From: Pseudoxanthomonas helianthi
Lineage (GTDB): Bacteria; Pseudomonadota; Gammaproteobacteria; Xanthomonadales; Xanthomonadaceae
DNA: 64,000 bases
Reading direction: 5' to 3'
Assembly (NCBI RefSeq): GCF_017939625.1
Contig: NZ_JAGKTC010000004.1
Location: 208,460 to 272,459 of the forward strand
This document shows, piece after piece, positions 6,730-18,343 of the stretch (position 1 is the first letter of the stretch; every line of letters begins with the position of its first letter). The translations under genes and the position numbers were made by a program. The notes beneath the pieces were generated by a model. The model did no database searches, was not told the DNA's origin, and was given only the letters and a program-made list of their open reading frames with translations.

Positions 6730-9351
6730 GTGACCCGCCTCGCACCGCACCAGGCCGCGCCCGATCCGGCCGCTTCCGGCCACACGCCCCTGATGAAGCA
6801 GTACTTCGCCGCGAAGGCCGAGTACCCCGACCTGCTGCTGTTCTTCCGCATGGGCGATTTCTACGAGCTGTTCTACGACGACGCCCGCAAGGCGGCGCGG
6901 CTGCTCGACATCACCCTGACCCAGCGCGGCGCCTCGGCCGGCCAACCGATCCCGATGGCGGGCGTTCCGCACCACTCCGCCGAAGGCTACCTGGCGCGGC
7001 TGGTGGCGCTGGGCGAATCGGTCGCCATCTGCGAGCAGATCGGCGATCCGGCCCTGGCCAAGGGCATCGTCGAACGCAAGGTGGTGCGGATCATCACCCC
7101 CGGCACGGTCACCGACGAAGCTTTGCTCAACGAACGCCGCGACACCCTGCTGATGGCCGTGTCGCGCGGCAAGCAGGGTTACGGCCTGGCCTGGGCCGAC
7201 CTCGCCGGCGGGCGCTTCCTGGTCAACGAGGTCGACAACGCCGACGCGCTGGAAGCAGAGCTGGCGCGTCTGGAACCGGCCGAACTGCTGCTGCCCGACG
7301 AGGAAGGCTGGCCTGCGTTCCTGCAGGGACGCAGCGGCATCCGTCGCCGCGCGCCGTGGCTGTTCGATGCCGACAGCGGCCGTCGCCAGTTGCTGCAGTT
7401 CTTCGGCCTGCACGACCTGACCGGCTTCGGCATCGACGACAAGTCCCTGGCCACCGCCGCGGCCGGCGCCCTGCTCGGCTACGTGCAGGAAACCCAGAAG
7501 CAGCAACTGCCGCACCTGAGCGCGATCGCGGTGGAATCGGCCGGCGACGCCATCGCGATGAACGCCGCCACGCGCCGCCACCTGGAACTGGACACGCGCG
7601 TCGATGGGGACACGAAGAACACGTTGCTCGGCGTGCTCGACACCACGATCACGCCGATGGGCGGGCGCCTGCTGCGGCGTTGGCTGCACCGTCCGCTGCG
7701 CGACCGCCGCGTGCTCGGCGAACGCCACCAGGCGGTTTCCACGCTGATCGAAAGCCGCGGCGACGATGCCCTGCGCGAACGCTTCCGTGCGCTCGGCGAC
7801 GTCGAACGCATCCTGACCCGGGTAGCGTTGAGGTCGGCGCGGCCGCGCGATCTTTCCACGTTGCGCGACGCGCTGGCCATGTTGCCGGCGATCCGCGACG
7901 TGCTGGCGCCGCTGGATTCGCCGCGCCTGGATTCGCTTTCGCGGGAACTCGGCGAACACACCGGCGTCGCCGCCCTGCTCGCCCGCGCGGTCGCGCCGCA
8001 GCCGCCGCTGAAGCTGGCCGACGGCGGGGTGATCGCCGAAGGCTTCGACGCGGAACTCGACGAATTGCGCCGGCTCAGCACCCACGCCGACCAGTTCCTG
8101 GTCGACCTGGAACAACGCGAACGCGAAAGCAGCGGTATCCCGACGCTGAAGGTCGGCTACAACCGCGTGCACGGCTACTACATCGAGATCAGCAAGGGCC
8201 AGGCCGACAAGGCGCCGGTGCATTACACCCGCCGCCAGACCCTGACCGGCGCCGAGCGCTACATCACCGAGGAACTCAAGCAGTTCGAAGACAAGGTGCT
8301 GTCGGCGCGGGAGCGTTCGCTGTCGCGCGAGAAGCTGCTGTACGAAGAACTGCTGGATGCGCTGAACCGCGAGCTCGAGCCGTTGAAGCGCTGCGCCGCC
8401 GCGTTGAGCGAACTCGACGTGCTGGCCGCCTTCGCCGAACGCGCGCAGGCGCTGGACTGGTCGCAACCGGAACTGACCGCCGAACCGGGCCTGCGCATCG
8501 AACGCGGCCGCCACCCGGTCGTCGAAGCGGTGCGCGAGGAACCGTTCGAACCGAACGACCTTTGCCTGGGCGAAGACCGCCGCATGCTGGTCATCACCGG
8601 CCCGAACATGGGCGGCAAGTCGACCTACATGCGCCAGAACGCGCTGATCGTGCTGCTTGCCCACATCGGCAGCTTCGTGCCGGCGTCGAAGGCCGTGATC
8701 GGCCCGATCGACCGCATCCTGACCCGCATCGGCGCCGGCGACGACCTCGCCCGCGGGCAATCGACCTTCATGGTCGAAATGGCCGAGACCAGCTACATCC
8801 TGCACCACGCCACGTCGCAGTCGCTGGTGCTGATGGACGAAATCGGCCGCGGCACTTCGACCTACGACGGCCTTGCCCTCGCCGATGCGGTCGCACGCCA
8901 CCTGGCCGCGAGCAACCGCTGCTACACCCTGTTCGCCACGCATTATTTCGAATTGACCGCGCTGGCTGGCGAACCCGGCAGCGGCATCGCCAACGTCCAC
9001 CTCGACGCGGTCGAGCACACCGACGCCAGCGGCGCGGAAACCCTGGTGTTCATGCACGCGGTGAAGGACGGCGCTGCGGACCGCAGCTTCGGCCTGCAGG
9101 TCGCCGCACTCGCCGGCCTGCCGAGGACCACCCTGCAACAGGCCCGCCGTCGCCTCGCCGAACTGGAACAACGCGGCCGCGAAACCCACGCGGCCCAGGT
9201 TTCGCCGCAGGCGCTGGACGCGCCTCAGCAGTTCGGCCTGTTCGCACCCGCGCCCTCGGCCGCACAAGAAGCGCTCGCCGCGCTGGACCCGGACGAACTG
9301 ACCCCGAAGCAGGCGCTGGAAGCGCTGTACCGGCTCAAATCGCTGCTCTAG
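6730..9351 (+). CDS. mutS: DNA mismatch repair protein MutS
   Basis: 873 codons, the usual MutS size. It recognises mispairs and recruits MutL for methyl-independent strand repair in this lineage. The mismatch wedge G-D-F-Y-E has Phe44 and Glu46; the ABC ATPase has Walker [10 protein letters not shown] at 624-632 and Walker [11 protein letters not shown] with Asp703 and Glu704. The C-terminal end [14 protein letters not shown] matches the dimerisation tail of gammaproteobacterial MutS. The first start is GTG at 6730, giving a 21-residue lead before L-M-K-Q-Y-F, similar to Xanthomonas. It is followed after 62 bp by the AAA+ gene in the same direction. Confidence 0.98.
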
Positions 9352-9413
9352 GCGCCTCCGGAATCACGTATTCATTGCGATAGACTCGCCGCAGACAAGG
9401 CCAAGGGGGATGC

Positions 9414-12400
9414 ATGGTCGGCGCGATCTGGTTTGTGTGCGGCCTGGTTGTGGGCCTGGTTGTCTATTCCGTATTCAAGCGTCGCCCGCCCGGATCCGGA
9501 AAGACGTCTGCTCCTGCGGACAACCTGCCGTCGAGCGATGCGGACGTCGTTGAAGACGATCCGAGGCCAGTGCAGGAAAGGCTTTTGCAGCTGAAGCGCG
9601 AAGTCGAAGCGCAGGACGAACACATCCAGCGACCGGCGGATCTGCTTGCCAATCCGCAGTTCAATGAAGCCGTTGCGCTGCTGGCGGGGCCGCACTACCA
9701 ATCCGGCGACGTATTGGACTACCTCGGTGCGCAGGGATACGTGTTGCCTTCGATGGCGGCGGTGGCGTTGCCCAGGCGTCAGGATACCGACCCGGCCGCC
9801 GTCGTGGCGACGGTTCCGCGCCTGGGCGGATATGCCCTCCATTTCGTCCTCGACTATCTGCAAACCCTACCGAATGCGGACCTGCTGCATGCCTTGCTGA
9901 AACATGCGCGGGAATGGTGGTGGGACTTCCAACCGTTTCGCCAGCGCCTGCAACAGTACTTGCGCTGGGCGACGGAACAACCCAATGCGGAAGATTCCGT
10001 CGACTTCAACGACGTGAACGACGAAGCCCTTCAAGTCGCGAAAGAGACGCTGAAGCATTTTCGCGACCTGGTTCCCGCCCGCTTCCTGCAGCTCGTCGAC
10101 GAGGAACAGGTGCGGCGCCGGGAATTGCGCGTGCTGGGGGGATTCGGGCGGGTGCTCGCCGCGCCGTCGGGGCGCCGGTTTGCCCATCCGCGACTGCAGG
10201 AACAAATCGACCTCGTCGACAAGTCGCTGCGACGCGACGGCGGCGCCGGTTCGGTACTGGTATCCGGCGAACATGGCGTGGGCAAGAGCGTACTGATCGA
10301 CGCCGCGTGCGAGCGTTTGCTCGCGGATGGCTGGCTGGTATTCGAGGCCTCGGCTGCGGAAATACTTGCCGGACAAAGCCATGTCGGCGAGCTCGAAGGC
10401 CGGATACGCGAGATGCTCCATGTGCTGCACCGGCCCAGGGCGATCTGGCGTGTGCCCGATTTCCACGACCTTCTGAAGAAAGGTGCGCATTCGCAGGATC
10501 CGCGCGGCATCCTGGACCTGGTCATGCCCGCGATAGAACGCCGCGAACTGCGCGTACTGGGGGAAATCGCGCCGCGGCAGCTGGCGCAATTGACGGTCGC
10601 CCGGCCCCAGGTCCATCAGTTGTTCGACGTTGCCCACTTGCCCCCCGCCGATCCGGAGACGGTACGCATGCTGACCGGCGAATGGGCGAAGGCCCAGGCG
10701 ATCCAATGGCGCCAGCCGGTGGCAGACGCCGCGACACTGGCGGAAGCCGAGCGCATCGCAGCGCAGTTCTTCCCCGAGCAACATGAACCCGGCCGCGTCC
10801 TGCGCCTGCTGGACGATGCGCTGCAGGCGGCCACCACCACGCATCCGCCCGCCCTGCCGATGGATGCCGACGACCTGATGCAGGCAGTGGCCGCGCGCAG
10901 CGGCCTGCCCTTGGACGTGATCGACGATCGCCAAAGCCTGGACTTGGCCAAGTTGCGCGATTTCTTCCTGCAGCGCGTAATGGGCCAGGACGAAGCCGTC
11001 GAATGCCTGCTCGACCGCATCGCCATGGTCAAGGCCGGGTTGACCGACAGTAGCCGCCCCATCGGCGTGTTCCTGTTCGCGGGCCCGACGGGCACGGGCA
11101 AGACGGAGTTGGCCAAGGCGTTGGGCGAATTGCTGTTCGGCAGCGCCGAGCGGGTCCTGCGCCTGGACATGAGCGAGTTCCAGACCGAAGACTCGGCATG
11201 GCGACTGCTCGATGATGGTTCGCCCGACGCCCGCTCGCTGGTCACGCGCATTCGCGAACAGCCGTTCTCGGTGCTGTTGCTGGACGAATTCGAGAAAGCC
11301 CATCCACGCGTGTGGGACTTGTTCCTGCAGGTGTTCGACGATGCCCGCCTCAGCGGACGCAGCGGCAACACCGTCGACTTCCGCCATTGCTTCATCATCC
11401 TGACCAGCAACGCGGGCTCGACCATCCAGCGCAATGCCGGGCCGGGCTTCACCGCTTCAGGGGGCCATTACTCGCGATCGGCGGTGGAGAAGGCGATCTA
11501 CGAGACATTCCGCCGCGAATTCATCAACCGGCTGGACCGTGTCGTATTGTTCAACCCGCTCGACCGCGGCCTGATGCGCGGGATCCTGCACAAGGAACTG
11601 GACCGCGTGTTGACCCGTCGCGGCCTGCGCATGCGCGATTGGGCGATGGAATGGGAGCCGTCCGCCATCGAATTCCTGCTCGACAAGGGATTCACTCCCG
11701 ACCTTGGCGCTAGGCCCTTGCGCCGCGCCATCGAACACCACCTGCTCGCACCGCTCGCACGCCGCATCGTCGAGCACCGCGCTCCCGAAGGCGGCCAGTT
11801 CCTGTTCGTGCGCAGCGCCGGAAACGAGCTGGAAGTCCTTTTCATCGACCCGAATGCCCGTAACGAAACGCCGGTTGCAACGGCCGCGCCAGCAGCGGAA
11901 ACGCATGACCTGCGTGGACTGATGCACACGCCTGCCACCGGACCGTCGGTGGTGTCCTTGCTGCAGCGCAGCCTGTCGGCCCTGCAGGAACGCGTGGACA
12001 TGGCGGATTGGCAGGAAGACCGCGCCACCGACTTCGGGGAATTGTCGGCGGACGGTTTCTGGTCTCGTCCTGACCGATTCGCGGTACTGGACCGGATCGA
12101 GCGTCGCGATCGTATCGAAAGCGCGCTCGATAGCGCCCAGCGCATGCATCGGCGACTGTCGCCGACCCAGGGCAACGCCGCGTTCTGCGCCCAACTGGCA
12201 CAATTGCTTTACCTGCTGGACCTGGCCGTCAATGCCGTAATCGAAAGGCGCCCGCAAGATGCGTTGCTGGTGGTGGACGCGGGTGGCGCCGAAACTAGGG
12301 CGACGACGGAAAGCCGGGACTGGTGGACCCAATTGCTGGCCATGTACGGCGCGTGGGCCGCGCGCCGCAACATGCGCATCGAAGTCCTGAAGCAGGATGC

Positions 12401-12734
12401 GGAGCGCGCCTGTGCATGGCTTGCCGTTTCCGGCTTCGGCGCATACGACTGCCTACGCCCGGAAGCGGGTCTGCATGTGCTGGAGCTGGAACAACCCGAC
12501 CAGACCATTCGCCGCATCAGCGCGCAAGTACGGATCGACCCGGACCTGCCCGGCCAACCCCGCGTCCAGGCGGCAGCCTCGGGAAACTCGGGCCAGGAAC
12601 CTCGCGTCTGCCGGCGTTACCGCCCCATGCCGTCACCGCTGGTGCGCGACGGCGTGCGCGGCTGGCGCACAGGACGACTGGATCGCGTGATGAATGGCGA
12701 ATTCGACGTAATGCCGGCCGAAAGCGACGGCTGA
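9414..12734 (+). CDS. Membrane-anchored ClpB-like double AAA+ ATPase with a C-terminal release-factor-2-like domain
   Basis: 1106 codons. Residues 1-22 form one transmembrane helix (W-F-V-C-G-L-V-V-G-L-V-V-Y) and lead into a charged cytoplasmic part. The first AAA+ module has Walker A G-E-H-G-V-G-K-S at 285-292, but its Walker B is altered (A-I-W-R-V-P-D-F-H-D), so it may bind rather than hydrolyse ATP. The second is intact: G-P-T-G-T-G-K-T at 557-564, L-L-L-D-E-F-E-K-A-H with Asp624/Glu625, sensor I-L-T-S-N-A-G-S, and a ClpB D2-small segment with I-N-R-L-D-R-V-V. There is no Clp-R N-domain or M-domain coiled coil. From about residue 860, F-W-S-R-P-D-R, then D-A-G-G-A-E-T, W-W-T-Q-L-L-A-M-Y-G-A-W-A and A-Y-D-C-L-R-P-E-A-G-L-H align with RF2 domains 1 and 2. 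The GGQ core has shrunk to S-G-N-S-G-Q (SGQ at 1059-1061), after which the RF2 C-terminus resumes. Substrate unknown. Confidence 0.85.
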   Translation: MVGAIWFVCGLVVGLVVYSVFKRRPPGSGKTSAPADNLPSSDADVVEDDPRPVQERLLQLKREVEAQDEHIQRPADLLANPQFNEAVALLAGPHYQSGDVLDYLGAQGYVLPSMAAVALPRRQDTDPAAVVATVPRLGGYALHFVLDYLQTLPNADLLHALLKHAREWWWDFQPFRQRLQQYLRWATEQPNAEDSVDFNDVNDEALQVAKETLKHFRDLVPARFLQLVDEEQVRRRELRVLGGFGRVLAAPSGRRFAHPRLQEQIDLVDKSLRRDGGAGSVLVSGEHGVGKSVLIDAACERLLADGWLVFEASAAEILAGQSHVGELEGRIREMLHVLHRPRAIWRVPDFHDLLKKGAHSQDPRGILDLVMPAIERRELRVLGEIAPRQLAQLTVARPQVHQLFDVAHLPPADPETVRMLTGEWAKAQAIQWRQPVADAATLAEAERIAAQFFPEQHEPGRVLRLLDDALQAATTTHPPALPMDADDLMQAVAARSGLPLDVIDDRQSLDLAKLRDFFLQRVMGQDEAVECLLDRIAMVKAGLTDSSRPIGVFLFAGPTGTGKTELAKALGELLFGSAERVLRLDMSEFQTEDSAWRLLDDGSPDARSLVTRIREQPFSVLLLDEFEKAHPRVWDLFLQVFDDARLSGRSGNTVDFRHCFIILTSNAGSTIQRNAGPGFTASGGHYSRSAVEKAIYETFRREFINRLDRVVLFNPLDRGLMRGILHKELDRVLTRRGLRMRDWAMEWEPSAIEFLLDKGFTPDLGARPLRRAIEHHLLAPLARRIVEHRAPEGGQFLFVRSAGNELEVLFIDPNARNETPVATAAPAAETHDLRGLMHTPATGPSVVSLLQRSLSALQERVDMADWQEDRATDFGELSADGFWSRPDRFAVLDRIERRDRIESALDSAQRMHRRLSPTQGNAAFCAQLAQLLYLLDLAVNAVIERRPQDALLVVDAGGAETRATTESRDWWTQLLAMYGAWAARRNMRIEVLKQDAERACAWLAVSGFGAYDCLRPEAGLHVLELEQPDQTIRRISAQVRIDPDLPGQPRVQAAASGNSGQEPRVCRRYRPMPSPLVRDGVRGWRTGRLDRVMNGEFDVMPAESDG

Positions 12735-15380: not shown

Positions 15381-17700
<2,320 letters not shown>

Positions 17701-17752: not shown

Positions 17753-17800
17753 CGTATCCAGCGCCCCACCCTCACGCATGTCGGTCATCTCTCTTTTGCT

Positions 17801-17894
17801 CGTCATCCCAGCGAAAGCTGGGATCCATTGCGCCTTTGTCCCACTTCTGCAGGAAGCAACAGCAACATGGATCCCAGCTTTCGCTGGGATGACG
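17801..17894. repeat. 28-bp perfect inverted repeat (CGTCATCCC type REP pair)
   Basis: Arms at 17801-17828 and 17867-17894 are exact reverse complements. Each arm is itself a hairpin, CCCAGCGAAAGCTGGG, with a GTCAT head. The CGTCATCCC-type palindrome is widespread in proteobacterial genomes. It sits between katG and the convergent hslR. Confidence 0.85.
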
Positions 17895-17947
17895 GCAGCC
17901 ACGGAAACGCTGATCCGACATTCGGGGGTCACGACGAACCAAGACGG

Positions 17948-18343
17948 TCACATCGCGTCGATATCCCCCAGCGCCTGGATCAACCGCCGCGCCCGCTTGT
18001 CCGGCTTGCTGCTCGGCGGACGGTAGCCGCCAGCCTCGGCTCGGCGCTGCGCACGCTGTTCCTCGCGACGCTGTTTCGATGCAGCGCTTTCGGCATACAA
18101 CGCCTGCGCGACCGGCGCCGGCCCACGCGTGCCGCTGAGGGCGACGACTTCGATCTCGAAAGTCTCTTCGGCGCGCGTCACCCGCAATGCATCTCCGACC
18201 CGCACTGCCCGGGCCGGCTTGGCGCGTTGTCCGCCCACGTCGACCTTGCCGGTTTCGACGGCATGCTTGGCCAATGCCCGCGTCTTGTAGAAACGCGCGG
18301 CCCAGAGCCAGATATCGAGGCGGATGGCTGGGGTTTCGGTCAC
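17948..18343 (-). CDS. hslR: Heat-shock protein 15 (S4-domain RNA-binding protein)
   Basis: 131 codons from GTG at 18343. Hsp15 binds 50S subunits that carry a stalled peptidyl-tRNA and helps recycle them. The S4 domain starts [15 protein letters not shown] and continues with [12 protein letters not shown], the family signature. The basic C-terminal tail with [10 protein letters not shown] is also typical. The start is uncertain: the in-frame TTG at 18382 would add 13 residues, and neither has a good ribosome-binding site; GTG gives a lead before R-L-D closest to E. coli Hsp15. Head-to-head with the NTF2-like gene. Confidence 0.85.

Follow-up and report, generated by a model that had tools for sequence, protein, structure and literature searches.

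What does a release factor without its catalytic domain do at the end of a Clp-type ATPase? The question is raised by a gene at positions 9414..12734 of a stretch of 64,000 nucleotides from Pseudoxanthomonas helianthi (contig NZ_JAGKTC010000004.1), referred to below as the window. A first-pass annotation, made from the letters alone, had read this gene as a membrane-anchored, ClpB-like AAA+ protein fused to a domain that follows release factor 2 (RF2) but has lost its GGQ motif. The gene is a single frame of 1106 codons on the plus strand with an ATG start, free of internal stops. It is a genuine gene from a conserved family, and chance resemblance is ruled out. As judged from its sequence, the encoded protein is a membrane anchor followed by two Clp-type AAA+ modules (D1 and D2) and an RF2-like body without the GGQ domain, so that the main reading of the annotation holds. 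When the whole protein was compared with NCBIfam, Clp models and prfB were matched, all under their curated cut-offs. The genome of the window contains three PCRF loci including the fusion gene; one of the others has both SPFD and GGQ and is RF2-like, and the remaining one is called RF1 from its PCRF score alone. Because of these two further loci, the fusion is an extra protein. The gene and its release-factor-like part are composed as follows:

9414..12734, plus strand: whole gene, coding for transmembrane anchor, N-terminal region, D1, D2 and headless release factor (RF) body, 1106 residues
12009..12233, plus strand: helical domain like RF domain 1, with FWSRPDR, residues 866-940 (profile, alignment)
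12246..12548, plus strand: part like RF domain 2 (PCRF), residues 945-1045 (Pfam, profile, Foldseek)
12549..12608, plus strand: short variable linker in place of RF2 domain 3 with the GGQ (alignment)
12612..12707, plus strand: tail like RF domain 4, RRYRPMPSPLVRDGVRGWRTGRLDRVMNGEFD (alignment, profile)

The release factor body and what it has lost

Family members were gathered in two alignments, one of 21 C-termini (A1, mean column identity 58%) and one of 20 full lengths (A2, 59%), in which the members are 37-61% identical to the window protein. One member broken into two frames (L068) was left out of both alignments and of all counts of 21, L062 was left out of A2 as a near-duplicate of L061, and G408 was also left out. 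For comparison, 41 candidate RF frames were collected, of which the 32 with SPFD/SPYD or PxTE were kept (12 RF2 and 20 RF1), leaving out eight wrong frames and one duplicate.

In the whole-protein search, Pfam PCRF was found at residues 965-1022 above its curated cut-off (E 2.2e-7), and NCBIfam prfB at residues 947-1023 far under its own (E 1.1e-7). The PCRF family (PF03462) was matched individually by all 21 C-termini, and the fold of domains 1 and 2 is thus present throughout. A phmmer search with residues 841-1106 against the sequences of solved structures listed 21 RF2 entries first (E 5.5e-7 to 1e-5), the remaining 2 of the 23 matches having E values above 1. Alignment of the 21-row profile to the 12 RF2 sequences with hhalign gave probabilities of 98.1-99.0 and E values from 1.4e-13 in local mode to 2.5e-17 with -glob 0, and alignment to the 20 RF1 sequences a probability of 96.5 (E 8.6e-10). 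The real RF2 profile scored 94-97, reversed RF2 16 and 30 column-shuffled RF2 profiles at most 18.7. The local alignment ends inside domain 2, at RF2 column 196; with -glob 0, domains 1 and 2 were aligned, the GGQ domain was skipped and domain 4 was resumed up to RF2 column 359. The 42-column tail alone was placed on RF2 columns 320-357, the place of domain 4, with a score of 22.5 (E 0.003, probability 10.5) that none of 100 shuffles reached (maximum 19.6). Together with the R-x-Y and V-x-D motifs, common to release factors and present in 21/21 members, this gives modest support to reading the tail as a counterpart of domain 4.

The annotation had proposed a structure prediction of this region, and one was run. 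An AlphaFold model of the RF part, built on two sequences only (predicted local distance difference test score 62.6), gave 23 Foldseek matches at E<=0.001, the best being RF2 (5mgp_z, E 5.5e-7). Their titles or the phmmer list identify all of them as RF2, RF1 or mtRF1 chains except 8akn_W, which is titled only as a terminating ribosome. The TM-scores were low (0.23-0.27) and the root-mean-square deviations high, which we attribute to the domain placement and the unreliable tail of the model.

The catalytic half of a release factor is missing. The GGQ columns are gapped in 21/21 members, with no catalytic domain 3, which confirms the proposed loss of the motif. Among the residues that read stop codons (SPF in RF2, PxT in RF1, and HTS), all 21 have lost SPF and show a gap at HTS, and the recognition-helix motif GGTEAQDW of RF2 is reduced to its W (20/21). 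The annotation had spoken of a retained ribosome-binding shape; the fold has indeed persisted, but without the SPF loop, HTS and the recognition-helix residues. Likewise, all the strings that it quoted are in the sequence, but DAGGAET falls within a variable stretch at the place of GGTEAQDW, and SGNSGQ, taken for the collapsed hydrolysis core, lies within the variable linker and is absent from the other members. The V-R-D, R-T-G and G-E-F-D tail is near-invariant and corresponds in position to RF2 domain 4. The invariant RF core consists of FW in domain 1, M-Y..W, G..A, E-x-G-x-H, R-x-Y and V-x-D. A large share of the strongest conservation is found in stretches such as VLDRIERRDRIE and RGWRSGRLD, which by eye are not RF hallmarks. 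From what is established for release factors, loss of the GGQ and of the decoding residues is read as loss of release function: neither peptidyl-tRNA hydrolysis nor stop-codon reading in the known mode should be expected, and the fusion protein should not terminate translation.

The nearest relative, RF2 (prfB), shares with the fusion the order of its parts (domain 1, domain 2 and a tail resembling domain 4), the PCRF match and the fold match over domains 1-2. The fusion differs from it in lacking domain 3 with the GGQ, SPF and HTS, in the changed recognition helix, and in the Clp motor and membrane anchor placed in front. A tree of RF1, RF2 and the fusions showed three clades; since it is unrooted, the loss could not be placed and an origin from RF2 was not obtained from the tree. 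The RF2 scores, which exceed the RF1 scores, point weakly to RF2 as the source of the RF body. A bolder and unlikely reading, compatible with the unrooted tree, is that the body stems from a decoding domain to which the GGQ insert was never added. Among other relatives, ArfB/YaeJ is also a bacterial factor derived from a release factor, but is made up solely of the GGQ domain and a tail, whereas the fusion family lacks exactly that domain; PrfH/RFH is also a divergent bacterial relative, but has no N-terminal domain and still possesses the catalytic Gln, the reverse of the fusion family (both in the accessible part of PMC6514570, the main survey of release-factor evolution).

The Clp-type motor and the membrane anchor

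The N-terminal three quarters of the protein contain the following features, all on the plus strand:

9414..9473, plus strand: predicted membrane anchor at the N-terminus, residues 1-20, with KRR directly after it (hydrophobic 17-mer)
9561..10118, plus strand: partly conserved stretch to which no fold is assigned, residues 50-235 (alignment)
10131..10838, plus strand: D1 AAA+ module, residues 240-475 (hhalign against Clp D1)
10266..10289, plus strand: D1 Walker A, GEHGVGKS, residues 285-292 (sequence)
10371..10397, plus strand: D1 pore loop, GQSHVGELE, residues 320-328 (sequence, family alignment)
10446..10463, plus strand: former D1 Walker B, WRVPDF, Asp replaced by Pro (sequence, family alignment)
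10941..11813, plus strand: D2 AAA+ module with D2-small domain, residues 510-800 (Pfam AAA_2, ClpB_D2-small)
11082..11105, plus strand: D2 Walker A, GPTGTGKT (sequence)
11205..11234, plus strand: expected site of the D2 pore loop GYVG, reading LLDDGSPDAR (sequence, comparison)
11271..11300, plus strand: D2 Walker B, VLLLDEFEKA (sequence)
11442..11450, plus strand: PGF at the position of the xGF loop of ClpA/ClpC (family comparison)

The first module was recognized by hhalign against 12 Clp D1 sequences (probability 99.6, E 4.6e-24, score 158.7; 20 shuffles at most 20.8). Its altered Walker B, which the annotation had noticed, proved to be a family trait: the Asp is replaced in 21/21 members, by Pro in 20 and by His in one, and the active D1 Walker B of the ClpA/ClpC type is absent. 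The aromatic residue of the D1 pore loop is present in 20/21 members (Tyr in 18, Phe in two), and the window copy is the sole exception, with His. The second module was matched by Pfam AAA_2 at residues 548-709 (E 4.3e-36) and by ClpB_D2-small at 716-795 (E 3.6e-15). It had been described as intact, and for the Walker A and Walker B motifs, both retained in 21/21 members, this is correct. Pore loop 1 is missing, however: GYVG is absent from all 35 fusions and cousins (21 members and 14 cousins, the latter described below), whereas 18 ordinary Clp comparators have GYVG in 17 cases and GYIG in one. For the whole group, this absence raises the question of how a Clp ring operates when it lacks its normal grip.

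The label ClpB-like was not confirmed. No middle domain is present between D1 and D2, which are adjacent, as in ClpA/ClpC-type proteins, and the NCBIfam ClpB model aligns only from residue 457 onward; the model TIGR02639 is co-linear from residue 285 to 795 (model positions 213-729), under its cut-off. The xGF loop of ClpA/ClpC is the loop that binds ClpP. An xGF motif is found in 35/35 fusions and cousins and in four ClpA/ClpC-type sequences, and is absent from 13/13 ClpB-type sequences and one ClpV-type sequence, the comparator types being assigned by eye. In the subfamily of the window the motif is PGF in 17/21, compared with the usual I/L/V-G-F. A tree of D2 without the pore-loop columns united the 35 fusions and cousins in a weakly supported clade (72) that adjoins a ClpA-type sequence (support 99). 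Because of the xGF loop, the missing middle domain and the placement in the D2 tree, the motor looks ClpA/ClpC-like rather than ClpB-like. With ClpA/ClpC-type Hsp100 proteins it shares the two AAA+ modules without a middle domain, the D2 Walker motifs and the xGF loop; unlike them it has a broken D1 Walker B, no D2 pore loop 1, and an anchor and RF body in addition. To the ClpB disaggregase it is similar in the D2 and D2-small matches, but it has neither middle domain nor GYVG and carries the xGF loop.

The transmembrane anchor was also substantiated, as a short hydrophobic 17-mer stands at the N-terminus of all 21 aligned members, weakest in L071 (mean hydropathy 1.46). Applying the positive-inside rule to the KRR that follows, we take the bulk of the protein to be cytoplasmic. 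Among the best 25 of 33 Pfam families there was neither a match to residues 50-235 nor a Clp_N domain.

Distribution and cousin architectures

A survey for homologues with anchor, AAA+ modules and PCRF, also proposed in the annotation, revealed a conserved family. A homologue of residues 841-1106 outside ordinary RF2 genes was found in 22/397 genomes of the order, the window genome included, in four families; apart from the window's own copy, these are 39-59% identical over the C-terminal query. The open frame spans 862-1254 residues in 21 of the 22 genomes, and in G408 it is a 276-residue frame at a contig end. A further full-length member (L021) comes from a metagenome-assembled genome of Candidatus Eisenbacteria. 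In a sample of the phylum (398 genomes) three members with long frames were found, all within the order, and in a sample of the class (369 genomes) at least six matches with two true members, both in the same order, the window genome being counted each time; two candidates per genome were scored in the class search with A2 and four in the one for cousins, so that the counts are lower bounds. No full-length match was present in 36 other genomes of the genus, with up to 12 candidates scored per genome. Because it is scattered in the order and absent from relatives of the same genus, the fusion gene is patchy and was repeatedly lost or gained. The RF body nevertheless persists in members with no more than 37-61% identity to the window protein, which argues that it has a selected function.

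Release factor fusions without GGQ occur in three architectures: the anchored one of the window (A), one in which D1, D2 and the RF body follow one another and no anchor was seen (B; L122 and L166, 916 and 918 residues), and one in which the fusion is the second gene of a tandem (C). In B, PCRF was matched in L122 with E 4.9e-16, and the pair was aligned to RF2 with probability 98.3 (E 2e-14). A dead GGQ was suspected by eye in GVLGGRIRSR of L122, the second member reading GQFEGRVRSR; the candidate was rejected, as the middle segment scored 15.1 against RF2 and 15.0 against RF1 in hhalign, with shuffles up to 20.4 and 20.7 (60 each). Architecture C consists of three different Clp-like AAA+ genes in four genomes, none of the three genes having the GYVG D2 pore loop:

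L074:6146-14579, minus strand: architecture C tandem
L075:5072-13451, plus strand: architecture C tandem
L123:23-8722, minus strand: architecture C tandem
L165:2977-11724, plus strand: architecture C tandem

The C-terminus of the second gene matched A1 with probability 93.4 (E 2.5e-7, score 55) and RF2 itself with probability 44.7 (score 37.5), shuffles with the RF2 and B profiles staying at or below 23.1; with fewer sequences the comparison gave no match. The third genes were rejected as RF-like (score 22.7 and probability 1.4 against RF2; 30 shuffles up to 20.0), and two of them, in L074 and L075, retain another Tyr near the missing GYVG. In L075 a DUF3686 gene (ATPase involved in DNA repair) lies upstream of the tandem, with one small frame between.

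Some of the cousins have MoxR, DUF5682 and CoxE-type vWA genes as neighbours:

L166:331-4774 and 7790-10546: MoxR, DUF5682 and CoxE-type vWA near the RF-fused Clp gene
L074:16656-19900: MoxR and DUF5682 near the RF-fused Clp genes

In L166 the three lie about 3-7.5 kb ahead of the B gene, and in L074 a distance of about 2-4 kb separates MoxR and DUF5682 from the nearest C gene; none of the three was seen in the stretch around the B gene of L122. Across genomes, DUF5682 was above its cut-off in 14/28 holders of a fusion (A 9/22, B 2/2, C 3/4) and in 2/32 hand-picked non-holders (Fisher p 0.00025). This co-occurrence is confounded by kinship and genome size, the window genome is without DUF5682, and we treat it as a lead only.

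Possible functions of the fusion

The explanation that we tentatively prefer is a membrane-anchored ATPase whose RF body is a docking module for a translation-related partner, which D2 remodels or releases. In such a mechanism, D1 would bind ATP without hydrolysis and serve as a scaffold, a passive first ring, and D2 would hydrolyse ATP without the usual grip on a polypeptide. Near the inner membrane the RF body, which probably serves for docking and not for catalysis, would contact either the factor-binding region of the ribosome or a binding partner of RF2 domain 1. The docked partner would then be remodelled or released by D2. Several points weigh against this explanation. The codon-contacting residues are not kept, which makes A-site binding of the RF2 kind doubtful. 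If the fusion protein is a hexamer, as we assume from Clp, six RF bodies would be an odd ribosome ligand, and a gene held by 22/397 genomes of the order and by 0/36 others of the genus is patchy.

Another real possibility, also to be held with reserve, is that the RF body is a mere protein-interaction or oligomer-capping domain with no ribosomal role and that the protein remodels a membrane-associated complex. This would fit the loss of the GGQ and decoding residues in 21/21 members, conservation that by eye is strongest largely outside the RF hallmarks, and sister architectures near MoxR and DUF5682, in one case with vWA, as MoxR-vWA pairs are usually understood to remodel protein complexes (PMC7159879). 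It accounts less well for domains 1 and 2 and the domain-4-like tail being kept together, which an interaction patch would not need.

It is rather improbable that the RF body is an adaptor that delivers translation-linked substrates, for example nascent chains stalled at the membrane, to a ClpP-docked motor. The xGF in 35/35, shared with the four ClpA/ClpC-type sequences and placed where their ClpP-binding loop lies, the D1 pore-loop aromatic in 20/21 and the grouping of D2 with a ClpA-type sequence all favour such a partnership, but GYVG is missing in 35/35, PGF replaces the usual motif in 17/21 and the large C-terminal domain might clash with ClpP. Competition with RF2, in which the headless body would sit where RF2 does, on ribosomes or RF partners (RF3, ArfA), and slow termination, ATP controlling release, is very improbable: RF2 is the closest homologue, but with the codon-reading residues lost, competition at the A site is unlikely. 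That the gene is a decaying relic or a frame artefact is scarcely credible: the patchy distribution, the broken frame of L068 and the lone His in the D1 pore loop of the window copy would fit it, but it is already contradicted by family conservation, the other fetched members having long open frames with catalytic and structural residues invariant down to 37% identity.

A more far-reaching proposal, which we consider unlikely though worth stating, is that the fusions are a fifth kind of RF-derived bacterial protein beside RF1, RF2, ArfB and PrfH, a GGQ-less body on Clp rings in three architectures, and that A serves to tether or sense ribosomes at the inner membrane, coupling this to ATP-driven remodelling, perhaps with handover to ClpP. 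If the RF body still touches ribosomes, it would be a direct physical link from translation to a Hsp100-type remodeller at the membrane, and the conserved combination of motor and RF body could connect protein-remodelling machines with the ribosome; if it no longer does, a core translation factor has been recycled as an adaptor. Bacterial release-factor relatives are catalogued by the catalytic GGQ domain, whereas the fusion retains the opposite half, on a motor, and surveys seeking GGQ would therefore miss it. No description of a Clp-RF fusion was found among the matches listed in the open full-text literature, preprints not being covered. The term release factor does not occur in the accessible parts of PMC7159879 and PMC8195603; the fusion mentioned in the latter is another one, joining a death-like domain to a Clp-like ATPase.

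Genomic neighbourhood

Two genes flank the fusion gene in the window:

6730..9351, plus strand: mutS, 63 bp upstream of the fusion gene on the same strand
15547-17700: katG, downstream of the fusion gene

The mutS gene lies upstream on the same strand in 13/22 loci, with a gap of 48-63 bp in five of these; it was not detected in the other nine, where several stretches are short and where, in L055, the gene caller missed the fusion gene. The adjacency is taken as inherited gene order rather than as a functional link. Up to 1.5 kb downstream of mutS in 24 genomes of the genus there was no trace of the fusion gene; katG, genes of the glutathione S-transferase type or others, or nothing recognised, were found there. 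In 15 of these 24 relatives katG directly follows mutS, so that two genes adjacent in other genomes have the fusion gene between them here.

A reading as a defence system was rejected; the five PADLOC matches all fall within AAA stretches. A mobile element was likewise rejected: nine plasmid records gave part-length matches (<=54% of the query), of which three carry a prfB annotation and the others none under the match, five unannotated phage records gave partial matches, and viral contigs gave none. In the intergenic stretch at about 17800-17950 of the window, frames read IPAKAGIH, WIPAFAGMT and PSFRWDDG, which we take to resemble a common dispersed repeat.

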